From a virus: a DNA stretch of 21,873 nt. The position numbers and the translations under genes were made by a program. Shown one piece after another: positions 1,786 through 17,929 of the stretch. The stretch lies in IMG/VR virus record IMGVR_UViG_3300024520_000540, positions 1 through 21,873 of that record; one strand, 5' to 3'. How positions within the stretch are numbered: the first letter of the stretch is position 1; the number at the start of each line of letters is the position of its first letter. Below the pieces are notes generated by a model. The model was given only the letters and a program-made list of their open reading frames with translations, was not told the DNA's origin and searched no databases.

Positions 1786-4700
1786 TCATCTATTGCGAGA
1801 ACCGATTCCCTCCCGCTCCTCACGCCTCTCCTCAACTTTGTCAGCTCCACCCCCAGCCCACCAGTAAATTGGTGACCCGCCGACCGGAATTATGCGCCAT
1901 GTGTTGAATTTACCGGGTTTGATGTCCTCTCCTTCTGCGATTTGCTTGGCTGCCATCTCGATGTCGAGAAGCGGGTATGTGAGAAAAGGTGCTGCTGGCA
2001 TCGCCAACTGCATCGCAAACTCGAGCGGGTTCTTCCGGTAGCGGAAGTTCCACACATGCCACCGGGAGATGCCCATCAACTTGAACAGGTTGTCTACCAT
2101 GATGTCCTCCAGTTGGGGGTCGCGCCCCATCAACCAATCCTTGATCCAGTCCACCGGGATGTTGCCGAGGTAGAACAGACCAGCGAGGTGGAGGAGTCTA
2201 CGGAAGCCGGACGCTTTCTGTTGGAGGTTGCCGTTGACGATGTCGTCGAGCCCCTCCCGCCGGAAGGATTCTAGCTGCTTCAGCGTAAAAGTCTTTAGCA
2301 TGTAGAAGACTCGTCCGTTCGGGTTCTCGAGATACCCCTGTGGATATTCACTGAGGGAGATCGGCTGGTAGTCCGCGAGGACTGAGTAAACTGCGAACAC
2401 CGTATCATCATTGATGATACCTTCGGCGAAGTCTTCCAGCACCTCAGCTGCTTTTTCCTGACCGAACGTGGTCTCGAGTAGCTGTGCCGTCTTCTGGCTG
2501 ATTTTGCCCTTCTTGGCCTGCTGCGAGATCTGGCGGAACCTCGCGTTGATCAGCGTCTCCTTGCCTACCATGTCGATGTAGCGAAGGCCGGTAATGGTGA
2601 ATACCCCGTCCAGCAACTTGCTCAACGTGGTAATATCCGTATCGAACTCCCGGGCGACGTTCTCGAGGCCGAGGTGCCCCTTCACTGTGACGTTGGACTG
2701 GCGAACAGCAGCCTTTGTTCCCGCAACCATCGTATTGAATGCGCCGCTCTCGTAGAGGCTGAACATCAGGTCGCCGAACTGGGTGATGGCGGAAGTGACC
2801 TGCCCCATCGTGGTCATGTAGCCAAGCGTCTTAAACGCTTGGATCTTACCACTAGAGGCTGCGTAGTTGAACCGGGCACTGAGTATGGCGACCACCTGCT
2901 CCTGTTGGGCCGGGGTGATCAGTCCATCTGCAATTAACCCATCGACCAGCCCGCCGATGGATGCGTCCATTGCCAGCACCTTGCTCGATTCATCTGTGGC
3001 GCCATCCTGCTCAATGGCATACTTGCCGAAGAACCTGCGCTGCTCGATAGCCTTGTTGGTAGATTCTATGTAGCCGATCAAGGCCGTCGCGGAGTCCGCG
3101 TAGAACTGACTGGCATCGACACTCACGATGTCGGTCACTCGTCCCTTGAAGTTACCCGGCTTGGATGCAGCACGGTTGACCCGTTGGAGGGTCCGGTTGA
3201 CTACCTCGATCCGTTCCTCCCGGGTCAGCTCTCTTCCATCAGCCCGGGCTTTCTTGGCAGCCTCGGTGATCGCACGATCAATCTCTCCATCGACCGTTGC
3301 ATCTCCAGCGTAAAACTGCCGCAGACCCTCGTAGTCGATGACCCTGCGTGGGTAGTAGTCCTCGATCTCTCCGATATCGTAGCCTGCTGCCTCCCCGCGT
3401 TTGCGGGTTTCATTCAAGACCTCGATGACGGCCGAGAATGCCTCACGGAGGTTGTAGGCATCGAGCACCGTGTTTCGGGTCTCCACGTCGCCGTTCTTCA
3501 GCGCAAGGTCCAAGGTCTGGGCATCCTCTTTCGACATCCTCTTAAAGCCCTCCATGAACGGGGTGACCTTCTCAAGATCGTCCTTAATAGCTACACCGAG
3601 ATCGAACTCGAACCGGCGTAGGCGCTGTGCAAGGGGTCGAGAGATGCGCTGTAGGCGACCAGATACCGGCACAAGGAACTGAGCTGCCATCGTGGCCTCA
3701 CCGGTCTTCTGTGCACGCTCCACCCGCTCCGGGATTGGGAGCTTGTTGATCTGGCGATTGAGGAGGTCGGTTGCTGCTGCGAGGCGCTTTGCGTTGATCT
3801 GCTCCCAGCGTGCCTTCAGCTGCTGTGCTTCAGTGACCGGCTGGCCGGATAGTTCGTAAGCTAAAGCAATGTCGTCTTTGGCACTGCTCGTTGAAAACGT
3901 AGTCTTTACGCCTTTTGATCTGCTTCCATCAGTGCCTGTTTTAGCTCCTCGTCGCTGAACTCCGGCACCTCCGAGCTGAAGTCCGCTGGCCATGACGGTC
4001 CTTTCAACGCGAATCTGTCCTCGGTCGAGGATGACTTTGGAGTTCGTGTATCGGTTTTCCGAGCCTTCTGTAAAGTAGCTGCCATTGCGGATGAAATCGT
4101 GGACCTTGTTCGCATCAATATCAACTCCATACTCCCGCATCAGGTCCTTGGTCAAATCCAGCGAACTGTGACCTACCGCTTCGTTCTTGATCGCATTCCA
4201 GCCGTGCCAATGCAGGCCACCCGGGTTGGCGTGTTTGCCAAGATGGGCCTGCAGTTCTGGTGACGCGTCGATTGCTGCCTGCAACGAAGTCTCGAGCGCC
4301 TCGTACATCGCCAGCGAGAGGACTGTGTTGCTCGCGTCAACGCCCCCATAAACACCATACACTCCGACCGGGTCTCCGGGCACGTTTTCAGAGTACTTGA
4401 AGTACTGCTTGGGCTCACCATGTCCCACTCCCTCCATCGCGGACGGAAGCCAAAACTCAACGAACTTCCAACGGTCCATGATCACGCCGGGGACACCAAA
4501 CGTGAGCCCGATGAAACGTTGGACCTTGTTCTTGATCCCTAGAGCACCGGCATCGAGTGCCCAAAACTTGCGTCCCATCTCCTTGGCATTTGGTGCTGCG
4601 TACACATCCGCCGCATCGCTCCACCGTCCGTTCAGGTTTTTGAGCATCAGGTAGAACGCGTTCGCATTAGCTGTGGCAGCGTTGCCGATCTGGCCCGCAC

Positions 4701-7700
4701 CATCCTTGGTCGCCTTGCGGGCGTCCAACACCAGTCCACTCCACTGCTTTAGGGTCAGCGAGAACGTCCCGTCGATTGACGACTGGATGGCATCGAGCAC
4801 TGGACGGTGCGAAATCAAGCGTAGCCACATCCCCTCTTGGTGGATCGGTGGCAACATCCGTGAAAGCACGCCCCACATATGGTGCAACGCAACCGCCCAC
4901 TCCGCTGGGGCCTTACCTTCTCCGATTATTGACCGCATCTCTACCGTTCCGTCCAGACCTTGCTTGGCACTCTTCTGCGTGCCCGCGATGGACCGGTCTC
5001 CGTGGTATCCACCGTTCAGCTTTTCCACGTACCCTGCAGGGTTTTCGAACAGCTCTGCCAGTCCAGTCGGCGGCATTGGGACCTCGCCCCACACACCGGC
5101 CTTGCGCATGAACTGCACCCATCCCGAGCTGGTGGCGATCACTGAAGGATCCTTGCGCAGCCAGTTCAGAGCCGAGTCCAGACGTTTGTAGAACGCGTCC
5201 CGTGACTTGGGGTTGGTGATTACCTTTGTGAGGGAATCCGCACGCTTGGGTATATTCCAGATCGGCAACGCCCCGGTATCGATAGCATTTACTCCCCTCG
5301 GGGGTTTTACGGACAGGTCTTTTGCTGTGATCGAGAACGTGACATCCGGCACCGCATCCGCAGCATCTGCCACCTTGGCCTTAGCCTTAGCCTGCACTGC
5401 GGCGGCAGCTTCGTATTCGGACGCCTCGAAAGTTGGCACCTCGATACCTTTGAGCACGTCGTCGGTGTCCCGAACCATGAAGACCACGTCCGGCTCACCC
5501 ATGGTTTCGTAGTTCCAACCATCTGGAGCATATTCCCGGGAGAACTTAACACGGGCAACCTGTGCGAACTTGAACTGCCCGTATAGGTTCGGGAGGAATC
5601 CACCGATGTCGAACGCATCCAGCGTGCTGGCATACTCGGAAGCCTCCGCCAGCACTGCCTTCATCTTAGCGGTCGATCCCGGCACCTTGTGGACGCTCTG
5701 CAGGTCACCATAGCTGGTAACCATTACCCCACCGAGCTGATCCTCGGACTGGAAGAGTAGGTTCTCTGGGTTGAGGTAGGTCTCGAGCTCGTAAACCGCT
5801 ACCGCTGCACCTTGGGGGTGCTCTTTGCGGGTGCGCTCGAGGGCTTCCCGGAAGCTACGTCCTCGGGTTGCAGGATTAACCCTGAACCGGCTGCTGCCAT
5901 CCGTTCCCGTAGCGTCCGCTTGGGTGCTGGGATTCGGAACAGTTGAGCTTTTTGACGTTTGCTGAGCATCGGGAGAGGTAACTTGTGCCCCTGTAGAATC
6001 GAATTGTCCACCGATTTTTGCGATGCTGAAGGTCGTGTCATACCCCTCCATCTCCATCATCCGCTCAGCCTGAACTGAGAGCTGCGCACTGATGTTCTGC
6101 ACGGCGTTTGCCTCTGCCTGTTGGCGACGTAGATCGTAGTTGAGTCGGCCGGCTGCTTCCGGTGATTCACGGCGAGCCTCGTCCGGTTTACGTTGTCCCC
6201 CGAACGCGGCATCCAGTTCGGCCTGACGTTGTGCCCGGGCATCAGAAACTTCGGTCTGGGCCTGCTCCACGGGGATGATCCCAATCGCACCCTTGAGGGC
6301 CGACTCGAAACCCGTATCCAGTTTCCCATCACGCTGGAGCTTCTTCATCGTCGTGGACAGTTTAAGCACTGCCTTGAGATGCTCACCGAGGGACCGCAGG
6401 AAGTTCCCCCACGATGTCGGCATGCCCAACAGCTTCCGGTTGCCCACCGCGTAATCGATGACCCGCTTTGAGAACCACTCGATGTCGCTGATCGTGTCCT
6501 CTCCTTTGTTCACCACTCCGGTGTCGGCAGCATACTTCTCCCGCCATGCCTTGAGCTCAGCTTGGTCGAGATCTTTCAACGCGAGGCGCTTCTTGATGTA
6601 GCCCTCGGATACCTCCTCGATCACGTCCAGTGGTGTGCTGCCTTGGAACACCCGGGAGACATCCGTAAATAGATTGTTTCGATACTCGGCCTCGTTCACG
6701 CCGAACACCTTGGCTGCTGCAGGGTCCATCCCTGCGTCCTTGTTGTTCACGTCGCGTGCAACCTCGAGGCGCTTGACCGCTTCCTCTGCAGTGATCTTAC
6801 CCTCATCGACAAAGTCCTGCACCACCTTGGTGGTCTCCTCATCGACGATCAACTTACGACCCTCTTCAAGTCGGCTGTTCATCAGGGCGGCTGTCTCATT
6901 GCGAACCTGCTGTCGGATCTGGTCGGCGACAGTCGCCTTGAACTGCTCCACGAACGCAGCCTGCTTGGGGTCCTGCAGGTCGAGGACGTGGTATTGGCCT
7001 GCTGCATCCTTGAATACCATTGCGCCCTCAATCATGCCGAGGCTCGACCCGTTGAATCCGCCCATGTCCGGCCCATCCAGCTCAATACCGTCGATCTCAA
7101 CGAACATCTTGTCGGCGACCTTGTTGTTGTACTCTTCGATGGACACCTTGTTGCCATTGGCAGCCGACAGGAGGAGCTCACCAGTCGCGGGGTCCGGTGC
7201 CATCGCCTTGATTTCCTCATCGGTTTTCAATCGACGCATGATTCGGAAGTCCACCTCCGAGTAGAACTCACCGTCCTTGGTCGTCAGGTACTCGTCTCCC
7301 GCGTTCACGCCTCGGCCTTGGTCAATGTCGGCTGCAGTGGCGATACCCCCACCCATCAAGAAACCACCAGCGGCACCGATGGCTGCTTCCATGAGCCGAC
7401 GCTTGGCTGCTTCTCCGGTTACGAGCTCCCGCCCCTCATCGAAGGAGATCGTAGCCATCATGTCCTGAATGAACCCCTGAGTGGGCTCCGTGAGTCCCTC
7501 AGCCACAGCGCTCTTCGACCCTTCCCGAAAGAAGGTGGTGACGTAATCGCGGAAGACCACGCGACCGTGCTTCTTGGGCGTAGCTGCGAGCACCTTACCA
7601 AAGAGCACCTCCAAACCAAACGCCTTCTCAACCGCTGCCTGCATCGATGCGGTGGCCACGTTCTGGATAAACGCCTTGTCTCGGTCGTAGTCCTCTCCCT

Positions 7701-8748
7701 CGGTCTGTGCTCGGTCCTGCTCAACATCCGTGAACATCAGGGACTCGATTAGCACGGGACCTGCGTAGGGTATTACTGCGAGCGCAACCGTGGTGGGGAG
7801 GCTCCCAACGTATCCGGCAACCTGCCCAGCTGTGGTCTCCGCGAATTTAGGATCGACGTTGTAGAGGTTGTCCATCTCGTCAGCCATATCCAACAGCTGC
7901 TCCGTGATCTTGCGCATCTGCTTCGACGCTGCTGCTGCAGGCGTTTTAAGCCACTCCCTCATGTCGTTGCGATACTCGGCATCCAGTTGCTTGGAAATTG
8001 CCCTCTGCTTTGAGCGAATGGCCTTCAGGCGAGCTTCCTCAGCGTCGGTCGGGACCGGCTGGTAGCTCCCGGGCTCGTCATACGGGGATGTAGCGTAGTA
8101 ATCGAGGATCTGGCTGGCCTCATCCCTCAGCTTGGCGAACTCGGGGTCTGCTGCCAGCACTGGGCGCGTCGGGAATCCCGACACCATTTTCGTGATGCCT
8201 TCCGACTGAGCGGTCAGGCCTGCACCGGTTTTGTAGACCATCTCCGATGAACCTGAACCAATCTTCTTGGCGAAGTCTGGGATGAACGGGATCGCCTTGG
8301 AGCTGGCCACGCCGCCTACGCCCATGTTCCCAAATCCCGGGCCACGATCCATGCCGAAGGTTGGGTACATCAGAGCTCCCTTAGGCGCAGCCGGTGTGCC
8401 GATCTTGGGCACGTAGGGTGCGTCAGGCTGCTGTGCCTCTGGTGCCTCTTCTTCTTTCGGTTCTGGCGTGGTCTCGAACTGATAGGTCTCCGTGATCTTG
8501 TCGTAGATCTGACCCGGGGTCATCCCATCACCAAACATCCGGTTTGCGATGGCATCGTAGTTGGCGAGCACATCCTTGCGATTGGTGCCCATCTTGCTGG
8601 CCATCCAGATCGCGGTAAACTGGCGATCACCGAACTCAGGATCCAGTGACTTGGATTCGAGCTCCTTGAACTGGTCACGGACGCTTGAAGGGAGACGGTT
8701 GGCCCGGGTCTCTCGGGATTCGAAGAAGGGTGCTAAAGTTGATGCCAT
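1786..8748 (-). CDS. Giant polyvalent-type ejection protein in the T7 gp16 position (2320 aa)
   Basis: This protein fills the slot of T7 gp16 (1318 aa) but is far longer and modular, like the large polyvalent proteins that phages inject. Residues 1-90: helical, unrecognised; 91-200: Pro/Gly-rich linker; 200-480: charged helices with hydrophobic segments (316-335; Gly-rich 455-475). Residues 708-719 (DVIEEVSEGYIK) look like a degenerate HExxH-type site. Residues 966-1094 resemble a GNAT domain (LPNLYGQFKFAQVARVKF). Residues 1150-1600 are unrecognised, with GVPGVIMDRWKFVEFW at 1418-1433. Residues 1620-2320 have a polyvalent-type C-terminal pattern, with DYYPRRVIDYEGL at 1797-1809, hydrophobic helices around 2180-2260 and IPVGGSPIYWWAGGG near the end. 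A TFS motif recurs at 906, 1137, 1328 and 1617. I see no lytic transglycosylase motif, unlike T7 gp16. The ribosome site is weak; the start follows the previous stop by 6 bases. Confidence 0.85.
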   Translation of the reverse strand: MASTLAPFFESRETRANRLPSSVRDQFKELESKSLDPEFGDRQFTAIWMASKMGTNRKDVLANYDAIANRMFGDGMTPGQIYDKITETYQFETTPEPKEEEAPEAQQPDAPYVPKIGTPAAPKGALMYPTFGMDRGPGFGNMGVGGVASSKAIPFIPDFAKKIGSGSSEMVYKTGAGLTAQSEGITKMVSGFPTRPVLAADPEFAKLRDEASQILDYYATSPYDEPGSYQPVPTDAEEARLKAIRSKQRAISKQLDAEYRNDMREWLKTPAAAASKQMRKITEQLLDMADEMDNLYNVDPKFAETTAGQVAGYVGSLPTTVALAVIPYAGPVLIESLMFTDVEQDRAQTEGEDYDRDKAFIQNVATASMQAAVEKAFGLEVLFGKVLAATPKKHGRVVFRDYVTTFFREGSKSAVAEGLTEPTQGFIQDMMATISFDEGRELVTGEAAKRRLMEAAIGAAGGFLMGGGIATAADIDQGRGVNAGDEYLTTKDGEFYSEVDFRIMRRLKTDEEIKAMAPDPATGELLLSAANGNKVSIEEYNNKVADKMFVEIDGIELDGPDMGGFNGSSLGMIEGAMVFKDAAGQYHVLDLQDPKQAAFVEQFKATVADQIRQQVRNETAALMNSRLEEGRKLIVDEETTKVVQDFVDEGKITAEEAVKRLEVARDVNNKDAGMDPAAAKVFGVNEAEYRNNLFTDVSRVFQGSTPLDVIEEVSEGYIKKRLALKDLDQAELKAWREKYAADTGVVNKGEDTISDIEWFSKRVIDYAVGNRKLLGMPTSWGNFLRSLGEHLKAVLKLSTTMKKLQRDGKLDTGFESALKGAIGIIPVEQAQTEVSDARAQRQAELDAAFGGQRKPDEARRESPEAAGRLNYDLRRQQAEANAVQNISAQLSVQAERMMEMEGYDTTFSIAKIGGQFDSTGAQVTSPDAQQTSKSSTVPNPSTQADATGTDGSSRFRVNPATRGRSFREALERTRKEHPQGAAVAVYELETYLNPENLLFQSEDQLGGVMVTSYGDLQSVHKVPGSTAKMKAVLAEASEYASTLDAFDIGGFLPNLYGQFKFAQVARVKFSREYAPDGWNYETMGEPDVVFMVRDTDDVLKGIEVPTFEASEYEAAAAVQAKAKAKVADAADAVPDVTFSITAKDLSVKPPRGVNAIDTGALPIWNIPKRADSLTKVITNPKSRDAFYKRLDSALNWLRKDPSVIATSSGWVQFMRKAGVWGEVPMPPTGLAELFENPAGYVEKLNGGYHGDRSIAGTQKSAKQGLDGTVEMRSIIGEGKAPAEWAVALHHMWGVLSRMLPPIHQEGMWLRLISHRPVLDAIQSSIDGTFSLTLKQWSGLVLDARKATKDGAGQIGNAATANANAFYLMLKNLNGRWSDAADVYAAPNAKEMGRKFWALDAGALGIKNKVQRFIGLTFGVPGVIMDRWKFVEFWLPSAMEGVGHGEPKQYFKYSENVPGDPVGVYGVYGGVDASNTVLSLAMYEALETSLQAAIDASPELQAHLGKHANPGGLHWHGWNAIKNEAVGHSSLDLTKDLMREYGVDIDANKVHDFIRNGSYFTEGSENRYTNSKVILDRGQIRVERTVMASGLQLGGAGVQRRGAKTGTDGSRSKGVKTTFSTSSAKDDIALAYELSGQPVTEAQQLKARWEQINAKRLAAATDLLNRQINKLPIPERVERAQKTGEATMAAQFLVPVSGRLQRISRPLAQRLRRFEFDLGVAIKDDLEKVTPFMEGFKRMSKEDAQTLDLALKNGDVETRNTVLDAYNLREAFSAVIEVLNETRKRGEAAGYDIGEIEDYYPRRVIDYEGLRQFYAGDATVDGEIDRAITEAAKKARADGRELTREERIEVVNRTLQRVNRAASKPGNFKGRVTDIVSVDASQFYADSATALIGYIESTNKAIEQRRFFGKYAIEQDGATDESSKVLAMDASIGGLVDGLIADGLITPAQQEQVVAILSARFNYAASSGKIQAFKTLGYMTTMGQVTSAITQFGDLMFSLYESGAFNTMVAGTKAAVRQSNVTVKGHLGLENVAREFDTDITTLSKLLDGVFTITGLRYIDMVGKETLINARFRQISQQAKKGKISQKTAQLLETTFGQEKAAEVLEDFAEGIINDDTVFAVYSVLADYQPISLSEYPQGYLENPNGRVFYMLKTFTLKQLESFRREGLDDIVNGNLQQKASGFRRLLHLAGLFYLGNIPVDWIKDWLMGRDPQLEDIMVDNLFKLMGISRWHVWNFRYRKNPLEFAMQLAMPAAPFLTYPLLDIEMAAKQIAEGEDIKPGKFNTWRIIPVGGSPIYWWAGGGADKVEERREEREGIGSRNR

Positions 8749-15185: not shown

Positions 15186-16085
15186 TTAGGGCGACTCGTC
15201 GCAGTAGACGAGAACGACACGCTCTTCTTCCATGCGGGTAGCACCGAGAAGGAGGGTGGTGCGGATTTGCACCGTGTGGTTGAGGTCCGCACGGATGTCC
15301 ATATTCACCTTCTTGTCCTGACCGATACCGAGCAACACACCAGCCTTGTGGTAGGCGATGCAGGTGCGGATGTCGGTCGAGGCATCGATGGTGAGGAGCT
15401 CCAACATGCAGAACGTGAAGCCGAGGAACCGGCTGACTTTGCCGTCCACCAACGCTTTCACGTTGTTGTAGTCCGAGGACTTAACCTCGATGGCGTTGTC
15501 GAGCAGGTCCTGCAGCTGCTTGGCGCTGTGCAGGAAGTAGCGGTCTTCCTCTTCCACCTCGTTGGAATCGAGGATGAACTTAGCCTTGGTGAGCTTGTCG
15601 AGTATGAGGCCGGAGTTCGCAGCGGAACCGGACTTCACGTAATCGACAGCGACCTTCTGGCCAGCAGGAACATCGACGGCATCGGTGCCAGTCGTGCCGA
15701 TGTAGGCAGTGCCTTCAAGGGCGGCGATGATCACCTCGTCCATGGTGCGCTTAGCAGCCATGGAGTGAGATACGACGTGCTCGGAATCGGGAGCTGGGAG
15801 CTCGCCGAGGGCGATGTCATCGAACTCATCGATGTGGGTGACCTCGTCGTAGCCTTGCGGGCGAACCCAGCGTTTGGCCATCGGAGTGTCGGAAGCAATG
15901 GTCTTGCCATTGCGGGTGGTGATGAGGCGCATCTTGCTCTTCCCGAGTTGGGAGAACTGACGTTCCTTGCCACTGATCGTGGCGCGGCGGCATTTGCCCT
16001 CGAGGCGCGAATCCTTCTGCTGGAGAAGGTGCTCCCAGTTGTCGGCAAACTGCGTCTGATAATGGTCAGGCAGACTTTCTAACAT
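15186..16085 (-). CDS. Major capsid protein
   Basis: A 299-residue protein placed directly after the scaffold region, as the capsid gene is in T7-like phages. It resembles the Phage_capsid_2-type HK97-fold proteins: an N-terminal helix with an FADNWEHLLQQKDSRLEGK pattern, then KERQFSQLGK, a WVRPQGYDEVTHIDEFDDIA segment, HSMAAKRTMDEVIIAALEG and a C-terminal β-rich domain ending in EEERVVLVYCDESP. Several hundred copies would form the icosahedral shell. The ribosome site is weak (GAAAG, 8 bases from the ATG) in an A/T-rich leader, surprising for what should be the most abundant protein. Length is slightly below T7 gp10A (345 aa). The gene is divergent from the metalloprotease and 24 bases from the decoration-like gene. 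The assignment rests on resemblance plus position. Confidence 0.85.
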   Translation of the reverse strand: MLESLPDHYQTQFADNWEHLLQQKDSRLEGKCRRATISGKERQFSQLGKSKMRLITTRNGKTIASDTPMAKRWVRPQGYDEVTHIDEFDDIALGELPAPDSEHVVSHSMAAKRTMDEVIIAALEGTAYIGTTGTDAVDVPAGQKVAVDYVKSGSAANSGLILDKLTKAKFILDSNEVEEEDRYFLHSAKQLQDLLDNAIEVKSSDYNNVKALVDGKVSRFLGFTFCMLELLTIDASTDIRTCIAYHKAGVLLGIGQDKKVNMDIRADLNHTVQIRTTLLLGATRMEEERVVLVYCDESP

Positions 16086-16370
16086 GATAAAAACTTTCGT
16101 TTACGAGTGAATGTGATTCAGCCGGATTGGCTGGGTAAAACAGTCATTACGTGGAGGGTGTCCTGATTGGGCCTCAGTAGGTTGACTCTGATGGCTCAGG
16201 CTCCGATGAACGAAGGTGTCTGCGCTGTATCCATACATCGGCGACATCCGGCTCATGTGTCAAGCTCCGGTATTTCACCAAAACCCGGTCAAGCACTTTT
16301 TCTATGCCCCGTGGGTGTTTCGTAAGTCGTTGGGCTTGGTCCGAAATCACCGGATCCCCCAAAGTCGATT
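16086..16370. other. Intergenic region between capsid gene and metalloprotease
   Basis: About 285 bases separate the two divergently transcribed genes, by far the longest gap in the window. The capsid gene must be transcribed from here if the terminator at 16878-16911 works, but I find no convincing minus-strand sigma70 promoter. A perfect TTGACA reads on the minus strand at 16258-16263, yet no good -10 lies 16 to 18 bases further on. A 5-bp hairpin (CAGCC, loop, GGCTG) lies at 16119-16133 in the capsid leader. Short open frames on both strands (for example 16174-16362 minus, which needs a TTG start) lack ribosome sites. The promoter may be phage-specific. Confidence 0.5.
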
Positions 16371-16379
16371 TGGTATAAT
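16371..16379 (+). promoter_or_regulatory. Extended -10 promoter for the plus-strand metalloprotease
   Basis: The sequence TGGTATAAT is a full match to the bacterial extended -10 (TGnTATAAT). No recognisable -35 is present at normal spacing (cggatc at 16351-16356), which extended -10 promoters tolerate. Transcription would start near 16385-16387, only 2 to 4 bases before the ATG at 16389, giving a leaderless or nearly leaderless message. The element was identified by eye. Confidence 0.55.
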
Positions 16380-16388
16380 GGTGGTGAT

Positions 16389-16865
16389 ATGCGATTCACA
16401 AACACATCTAACGTCCCCTCCGAGATCCTAAAAGAGATGATCCGCCAAGCGGTTCCTCCCGGGGTCTCGTCCTTCGATATCAAGTTCAACAAAACCAGTT
16501 ACAGCCTCCGTGGACTAGCGTATGAATGGCACCGCTACAACGCTCGGCTACGACGCCATGTCCCCCTCGTCACGATCAAGATTCCATCTTCGTTTGGAGA
16601 ACACCCTCGCCCGATCCGAGTCAGCTGTTCTCGCAAAGAAGTCAGGAAGCAACGCCAGCAGTGCAGGGGCTACATGCCTTGGGAGTGCTACACTGATCAC
16701 GAAGAGATCGTCCATGTCATTGCCCACGAACTTCGCCACCTCTGGCAGTTCAAAGGAAAGGGAAAGCGACGGAAAGGAATGGTCTGGGGAGCGAGGGGAT
16801 CAGCCTCGGAGCGGGACGCTGATGCATACGGGATCCGCATCACTCGGTCATGGCGTAGGCGCTAA
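16389..16865 (+). CDS. Small zinc metalloprotease with HExxH motif (opposite strand)
   Basis: A 158-residue basic protein, the only convincing plus-strand gene here. The motif HVIAHELRHLWQ supplies His113, Glu114 and His117 of an HExxH zinc site. About 24 residues later SERDADAYG provides Glu141 in an ExxAD-type motif, as in minigluzincin-like families (M48-like, ImmA/IrrE-like), where this Glu is the third zinc ligand. The N-terminal 105 residues are unrecognised: helix (SEILKEMIRQAV), strand pairs (SFDIKFNK, PLVTIKIPS), three Cys (80, 92, 100). No signal peptide or membrane segment is seen, so it is probably cytoplasmic. It lies between scaffold and capsid genes, head to head with the capsid gene and convergent with the scaffold. 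An extended -10 lies 9 bases before the ATG. The substrate is unknown; virion maturation or an independent accessory (moron) role are both possible. Confidence 0.85.
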   Translation: MRFTNTSNVPSEILKEMIRQAVPPGVSSFDIKFNKTSYSLRGLAYEWHRYNARLRRHVPLVTIKIPSSFGEHPRPIRVSCSRKEVRKQRQQCRGYMPWECYTDHEEIVHVIAHELRHLWQFKGKGKRRKGMVWGARGSASERDADAYGIRITRSWRRR

Positions 16866-16939: not shown

Positions 16940-17929
16940 CTAGGACTTGGAGACCGCACGTTTGTTGAATGCGGTGACTTGGTCAACCGCTTGTTTATGC
17001 CTTGGATCATCGGGATCATGGTAGGCTGCGTTGAGCGGGTTGGCCTTATTGAAGATGATGTCCTTTGCTTTTTCCCGGTCGGATGACCCGAGGTTGTTGC
17101 CACCATCGCCGGAGACTATCCTGTCTTCGCTGACCATGGTGAACATCTGAGCAAACGCCTTCACGACGTTGGCCGAGTTGAACATCGGATCCGTGGCGGG
17201 GTCGAGTCCGAGGGTCCGTGCCATGCGCTTGGCGTGGTCGGTCTTTTCTTGGATCTCGCTGCCGAACGCCTCTGTGAGCTTGGCCGACTCTGCCTTCATG
17301 GCTGCTGCCTGAGCGGCTTCGGTCTCGGCGCCTAGTTTGGCTGCATGCTGGCCATCCATCTCGAATAGCTCATTCACCATTGCTGGTGGTGCGTTATACT
17401 TGTGGAGGACCGAGACCATGTCATTGACGTATTCCCCATTCCACTGCTCATCGGGCATGTCGTCTGGCTTGACGATGCCGTAGTCAGCGGGAGTAGCAGG
17501 CACGCCGTTGGCCTTACGCATTATCTCGGCCCGTTCTTCCTTCACCGAGTCAGGGGCATCATCTGGTAACGGCTCGAGGCCTTTGGTGCCGGCGAGGTAT
17601 TGGAGGTTCTTAATGCCGTCCAGCACTGCCTTGTTGGGATCCTCGGCCTTGGCGTATTTGCCGAAGAACGAGTGCAGGCCTTTGTCCTCACCGAACTGCT
17701 TCGCTGCCTCGGGGAGGATCTGTCCATCCTTGAACACGTTGAGCATGGAGTATGACGGCTCGCCACTGGATCCGGCGTCACCTGCGCCATCACTGGCACC
17801 TGCATCTCCACCATCTCCAGCACCACCTGCATCTCCAGAGAGCAGTGTGCCTCCTCCACCGCCAGAGTCATCGTCGGCGTGGAGCATGATCGGGGCGATG
17901 AACGCCCATAGGAATTGAATTAGCTTCAT
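16940..17929 (-). CDS. Capsid assembly scaffolding protein
   Basis: This 329-residue protein lies between the portal block and the capsid gene, the position of T7 gene 9, and has scaffold-like composition: acidic, rich in Ala/Asp/Gly, helical and without Cys. After the first 18 residues comes a low-complexity Gly/Asp segment (about residues 19-57), then a helical body with NGVPATPADYGIVKPDDMPD, a heptad-like Ala/Glu stretch (GAETEAAQAAAMKAESAKL) and a basic C-terminus (VTAFNKRAVSKS). Basic C-termini commonly dock scaffolds onto capsid subunits. The ATG at 17929 follows GAGGACTAATCC; the next Met (residue 15) has no ribosome site. The N-terminus MKLIQFLWAFIAPIMLHADD is oddly hydrophobic, like a signal peptide or membrane anchor. 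A terminator follows at once. Function is inferred from synteny and composition. Confidence 0.8.
   Translation of the reverse strand: MKLIQFLWAFIAPIMLHADDDSGGGGGTLLSGDAGGAGDGGDAGASDGAGDAGSSGEPSYSMLNVFKDGQILPEAAKQFGEDKGLHSFFGKYAKAEDPNKAVLDGIKNLQYLAGTKGLEPLPDDAPDSVKEERAEIMRKANGVPATPADYGIVKPDDMPDEQWNGEYVNDMVSVLHKYNAPPAMVNELFEMDGQHAAKLGAETEAAQAAAMKAESAKLTEAFGSEIQEKTDHAKRMARTLGLDPATDPMFNSANVVKAFAQMFTMVSEDRIVSGDGGNNLGSSDREKAKDIIFNKANPLNAAYHDPDDPRHKQAVDQVTAFNKRAVSKS

Follow-up and report, generated by a model that had tools for sequence, protein, structure and literature searches.

Phage morons are accessory genes that function autonomously, having a promoter and a terminator of their own; they are single genes between conserved structural genes, are bordered by a hairpin, are exchanged between phages and are absent from near relatives. 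In the counter-defence repertoire of phages, inhibitors that act by binding and enzymes that act on nucleic acids are better known than proteases. In M48-type gluzincins the motif of the third zinc ligand is E-x-x-A-D, followed three positions later by Gly or Ala, and together with the motifs of ImmA/IrrE it provides the basis for comparing proteins with an HExxH plus E-x-x-A-D arrangement. The zinc motif of YbeY consists of three histidines.

HTVC010P-type pelagiphages possess a hypervariable region that encodes a ribonuclease, one internal virion protein and a protein with a lectin domain; this region has not been described as the gap between the scaffold and capsid genes (PMC10504331). The virus analysed here, an uncultured podovirus with a complete record of 21,873 bases (the window), resembles these phages in its capsid protein, which shares 33-39% identity with the capsid proteins of the listed Pelagibacter phages. 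It differs in having a putative zinc metalloprotease gene between scaffold and capsid, which tblastn detected in none of the annotated phages. A literature search found nothing on this gene or on DUF6782, the Pfam family closest to its relatives.

Gene content of the locus

All recognisable phage genes of the window, encoding portal (PF12236), scaffold, capsid, tail and internal virion proteins, are located on the minus strand, among them one ORF of 2320 aa (1786-8748, minus strand), presumably a giant internal virion protein. The metalloprotease gene is read in the opposite direction, as the preliminary description had claimed. It and its neighbours are:

15186-16085, minus strand: major capsid protein, 299 aa (PF19821, E 1.9e-67)
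16389-16865, plus strand: putative zinc metalloprotease gene, 158 aa, HExxH...ExxAD (ORF, full-length homologs, AlphaFold2 model with family alignment)
16940-17929, minus strand: scaffold-like protein, 329 aa, upstream border of the slot (phrog_3742, unknown function, E 3.6e-19; phrog_458, weak)

The name scaffold for the 329-aa protein is given by position and composition; the gene is recognisable in all 24 related contigs. The frame of the metalloprotease gene is open from the ATG at 16389 to the stop ending at 16865. The span given previously (16371-16865) held for the ORF and not for its start, as it includes 18 bases 5' of the ATG. The key residues of the protein are H113, E114, H117, E141 and D143, with HELRH at residues 113-117 and SERDADAYG at residues 140-148, so that the earlier reading of a 158-residue HExxH protein with His113, His117 and Glu141 is borne out. 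Arg and Lys are abundant in the protein.

The scaffold-capsid gap in related phages

We compared the locus with 24 related podovirus contigs, whose capsid proteins are 62-94% identical to that of the window. In 21 of them the gap between scaffold and capsid measures 234-271 bp and contains no gene; the only ORF of at least 45 aa within these gaps is one of 51 aa (L050). Larger gaps were found in the window (854 bp) and in L001 (588 bp), L058 (1601 bp) and L055 (410 bp). Synteny in related phages, which the preliminary description had named as informative, thus showed that 21 of 24 relatives lack the gene at this place and that the remaining three have other contents there. L055 has a tRNA-Met (anticodon CAT) inside its gap (L055:4671-4747). 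In L058 (3529-4834) the sense strand encodes a metallophosphoesterase and two further proteins, one of 87 aa and one of 107 aa with the motif LLHEVMH. The latter belongs to a different HExxH family (PF14247, E 1.7e-5; phrog_1233, E 5e-19), and two unrelated HExxH proteins therefore occur in one slot.

In the ancestral gap the scaffold gene is followed directly by a hairpin with a T-run, then by a TTGACA-like element, a conserved leader and the capsid gene. The window retains these elements; the protease gene lies between the terminator and the capsid promoter and faces the other way. The elements in the window are:

16371-16379, plus strand: extended -10 promoter TGG-TATAAT of the cargo gene (TGGTATAAT), identical in L001
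16878-16911, no strand assigned: hairpin AACCCCCGGGG...CCCCGGGGGTT (fold z -3.8 on the plus and -4.1 on the minus strand), conserved in L001
16258-16263, minus strand: TTGACA, -35-like element of the capsid gene, ancestral according to the relatives and divergent from the cargo promoter
16156-16223, minus strand: conserved leader of the capsid gene, GACACC-hairpin-...-hairpin-GGACACCC, shared with relatives

Because the contents differ between the window, L001, L055 and L058, the gap evidently accepts different contents. This exchangeability identifies it as a cargo slot for accessory genes (morons), bounded by the terminator of the scaffold gene and the promoter of the capsid gene. With the slot named, accessory genes can be sought systematically in this part of the podovirus late region.

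The nearest relative, L001, has a capsid protein 94% identical to that of the window, and the remaining relatives reach 81% or less. The capsid leader, the promoter stretch AAAGTCGATTTGGTATAATGG and the opening codons ATGCGAT are common to both phages, as is the sequence CCGGATACAGAAAACCCCCGGGGTGGTGAA after the stop. The gene bodies between these common borders are unrelated: in place of the protease, L001 has behind the same promoter an ORF of 70 aa that contains a CxxC motif (L001:5487-5696, minus strand) and for which no homologs were found anywhere we searched. The 17-base promoter core was detected in viral contigs, besides the window and L001, in unrelated DNA only; the matches in L017, L018 and L020 were discarded for this reason. 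The swap rests on this one pair, as no other relative is close.

Promoter and terminator of the cargo gene

The extended -10 that the preliminary description had ascribed to the gene was found at 16371-16379. It has no good -35 and was not flagged by a consensus scanner. Since the ATG follows 9 nt after the end of TATAAT in the window (16371-16391) as well as in L001, transcription is predicted to start about 3 nt before the ATG and to yield a nearly leaderless cargo mRNA.

A terminator had also been proposed at the end of the gene. A strong hairpin is present there, folding at about -30 kcal/mol whichever strand is taken. Its T-run, however, reads on the minus strand (GGGGGTTTTCTG) and suits the direction of the scaffold gene. 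As the T-run has this orientation and hairpin and T-run are found at the same place in the relatives, the hairpin looks like first of all the scaffold terminator, acting bidirectionally for the cargo gene.

Protein family and conservation

Direct tblastn searches in phages and plasmids revealed no homologs of the 158-aa protein, and neither did a single-sequence scan of viral contigs and bacterial genome contigs. Weak tblastn matches (E 0.4-10) were regarded as chance; three of them were opened and showed no HExxH protein at the match. A scan of viral contigs with the peptide AHELRHLWQ revealed 19 loci, and the proteins at nearly all of these align over most of their length with 32-40% identity (E 1e-15 to 1e-30, the set searched being small). 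When two independent motifs were used in a profile-style scan, 28 viral loci were detected along with a single archaeal contig. Motif scan and full-length alignment together yielded 25 distinct relatives (identity about 26-41%). Almost all of them are encoded by contigs of uncultured viruses, although some of the member-carrying IMG/VR contigs may be misclassified cellular DNA. The archaeal contig (Nitrososphaeraceae, L061:5983-6591) encodes a distant member of 202 aa, in which N replaces E141.

H113, E114, H117 and D143 are kept in all 26 aligned distinct members and E141 in 25, the invariance of HELRH being partly built in because the first set was selected by that motif. Three members without the exact AHELRHLWQ string (L075, HELRHMWQ; L078, HELRHVWQ; L079, HEIRHLWQ) still pair HExxH with SERDADAY, and P23, G42, G134, G137, S140, E141, D143, Y147 and R156 are strongly conserved outside the selected string, which together gives the family independent support. 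Judged by sequence, the protein belongs to an unnamed, virus-enriched family.

No model of Pfam, NCBIfam, PHROG or PADLOC claims the window protein, and the family thus falls outside these collections; it comes with a clear hypothesis for catalysis (E114 with H113, H117 and E141). The profile of Peptidase M48 (PF01435) matched neither the window protein (E up to 1) nor 15 members (E up to 0.1), and SprT-like (PF10263) scored 15.7 bits on the window protein, below its cut-off of 25.6. The closest Pfam family is DUF6782 (PF20573, 'putative metallopeptidase family'), whose profile is touched by 13 of 15 members (best E 3.3e-5); in the window protein, however, the match is restricted to about 21 residues around HExxH and remains at 18.6 bits, below the curated cut-off of 27. 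No ImmA/IrrE (M78) profile matched, and no repressor-like neighbour was recognised in the window. The PADLOC effector SAVED_peptidaseM48 gave weak matches in four of 15 members (best E 0.0011); the window protein differs from it in having no match and no SAVED domain and in being encoded by a phage. Matches of four members to the Lit exclusion protease (NF007238; E 0.088 or worse) were not trusted, and the member from L083 gave no match as a query.

The neighbourhoods of other family members vary. One lies directly after a C5 DNA methylase gene (L073), one near a Dam-like methylase (L084), one between a papain-family peptidase and RecT and exonuclease genes (L069) and one convergent with a terminase gene (L082). 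In L077 the member is part of a plus-strand pair within a minus-strand block, beside a moron-class glycosyltransferase. A fixed head-operon context was found in none of them, and by gene order this is the distribution of accessory genes, not one of head assembly.

Predicted structure and zinc site

An AlphaFold2 model calculated with the family alignment reached pLDDT 78.8 and pTM 0.78; a model from the single sequence (pLDDT 49.0) was set aside. Residues 1-40, 101-120 and 141-158 average about 90, and residues 71-100 and 121-140 are weak. The model consists of a strand, a helix, three strands, the helix 103-122 that carries HExxH (local pLDDT about 90) and a helix 141-157, at the start of which E141 is positioned.

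The closest solved structures in VIA-align are zincins, the top rows having Z scores of 5.2-7.5, all below 8. They include YbeY (1oz9, Z 7.5, rmsd 4.7, 119 aligned residues; 1xm5, Z 7.3), M61 (7xyo, 7.0), M1 (4pw4, 7.0), Wss1 (5xbv, 6.2), selecase (4qhj, 5.6), BepA (6ait, 5.6) and matrix metalloproteinases (about 5.6); the best value of 7.5 is common among models that have no clear match. Since matrix metalloproteinases score equally with selecase and BepA, gluzincins do not stand out in the fold ranking. IrrE is not among the structural rows, an absence that does not count against IrrE likeness. Foldseek returned no match at E <= 0.001, a viral structure library gave weak matches alone, several of them SprT-like or zincin, and a sequence profile search of the PDB detected mostly HExxH helices of M1 aminopeptidases (E 0.67 or worse). 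Given the modest VIA-align scores and the Foldseek result, a zincin fold is likely, not proven.

The comparison with minigluzincins that the preliminary description had in mind thus produced a zincin-like model and a conserved motif pair, with modest scores that do not distinguish gluzincins. Like selecase and BepA, both among the structural matches, the protein combines a small zincin-like model with HExxH and ExxAD; unlike M48-type gluzincins it has no M48 profile match, membrane segment or TPR domain. Although D143 is more invariant, we prefer E141 as the putative third ligand because of the M48-type ExxAD motif. Motif conservation and model both favour the putative zinc site as first described, and catalysis at this site is presumed.

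Function of the cargo gene and alternative explanations

The earlier suggestion of an independently expressed accessory gene agrees well with these results: the gene has its own promoter and direction, a hairpin at its end, is missing from 21 of 24 similar phages and is replaced by an unrelated ORF in L001. We regard it as highly likely that the ORF is a moron in a cargo slot; its absence from relatives indirectly suggests that it may be dispensable for phage growth. Compared with known morons, the gene reads opposite to the structural genes and uses the terminator hairpin of the scaffold gene, and its promoter and start-codon region stay in place while the gene body is exchanged. It is probably transcribed from its own host-type extended -10, with a presumed timing independent of the late structural transcript. 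The product would be a compact cytosolic zinc peptidase of the gluzincin type, with zinc held by H113, H117 and E141 and with E114 as the general base that activates water; given the moron reading, protease activity is likely. Because nearly all relatives do without the gene, the infected cell, and not the virus particle, is probably where the protein acts. It may cut an intracellular protein of the host or of a rival phage and so serve host takeover, counter-defence or exclusion, and such a target seems fairly likely when set against a phage regulator. For the combined reading, a moron encoding a zinc peptidase with the target left broad, we estimate a probability of roughly 0.6. If the protein does cut a host immune or regulatory protein, a protease would be added to the counter-defence repertoire. 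Tentatively, the whole family could be viewed as minimal gluzincin proteases that serve as portable counter-defence or host-takeover cargo; in these podoviruses the gene would occupy an exchange slot in which the divergent promoter, the start-codon region and the hairpin are fixed and the gene bodies between them interchangeable.

A zinc-dependent protease that processes prohead or virion proteins and has acquired a separate promoter, the other role considered in the preliminary description, would fit the location between scaffold and capsid genes and the HExxH motif, and the different HExxH protein in the same gap of L058 could be taken in its favour. We nevertheless consider it improbable, because close relatives lack the gene: phages with 62-94% identical capsids and a still recognisable scaffold do without it, the relative with the 94% identical capsid has an unrelated ORF instead, the strand is opposite to the late operon, and other members reside beside DNA-methylase, recombination or glycosyltransferase genes and not in a fixed head operon. 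That the ORF is a chance product of antisense reading is hardly credible. Long antisense ORFs are common in the window, where other plus-strand ATG ORFs span 127-156 aa, so that length alone is no evidence for a gene; however, full-length homology at E 1e-22 to 1e-30 in the small search set to independently found proteins of other viruses, with the same length, start and motif order, argues for a real gene, and the border promoter and hairpin are conserved in L001.

Two further explanations concern what the product of the gene does. A zincin-fold protein without protease activity, such as a YbeY-like metal-dependent RNase or a binding protein devoid of catalytic activity, would agree with the best-ranked structural matches, both YbeY, and with the Arg/Lys-rich composition. 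It is unlikely, since the motif is HExxH...E and not that of YbeY, the M61 and M1 peptidases are within 0.5 Z of YbeY, which amounts to a tie, and the catalytic E114 is invariant in the family. The small size of the protein and the gluzincin-like arrangement of HExxH and E-x-x-A-D are also what would be expected of an ImmA/IrrE-type peptidase that cleaves a regulator and thereby switches expression of the phage or a neighbouring mobile element, rather than attacking host defence. This appears unlikely too, as no repressor-like partner adjoins the gene in the window, no ImmA/IrrE Pfam match was obtained and the other contents of the slot are unrelated genes.

The leader of the capsid gene

The conserved leader of the capsid gene is also present upstream of this gene in L001-L012 and L043-L060, and in nearly all relatives TTGACN, TTGTCA or TTGCCA lies 41-54 nt upstream of it. 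A search of Rfam revealed no match for the leader. Its single-sequence folds are mildly better than those of shuffled sequences (z -0.3 to -1.7), and its stems have changed but apparently re-paired across relatives, making it a candidate cis-acting RNA. With a terminator hairpin and a TTGACA-like element between them, the scaffold and capsid genes of this phage group look like separate transcription units.
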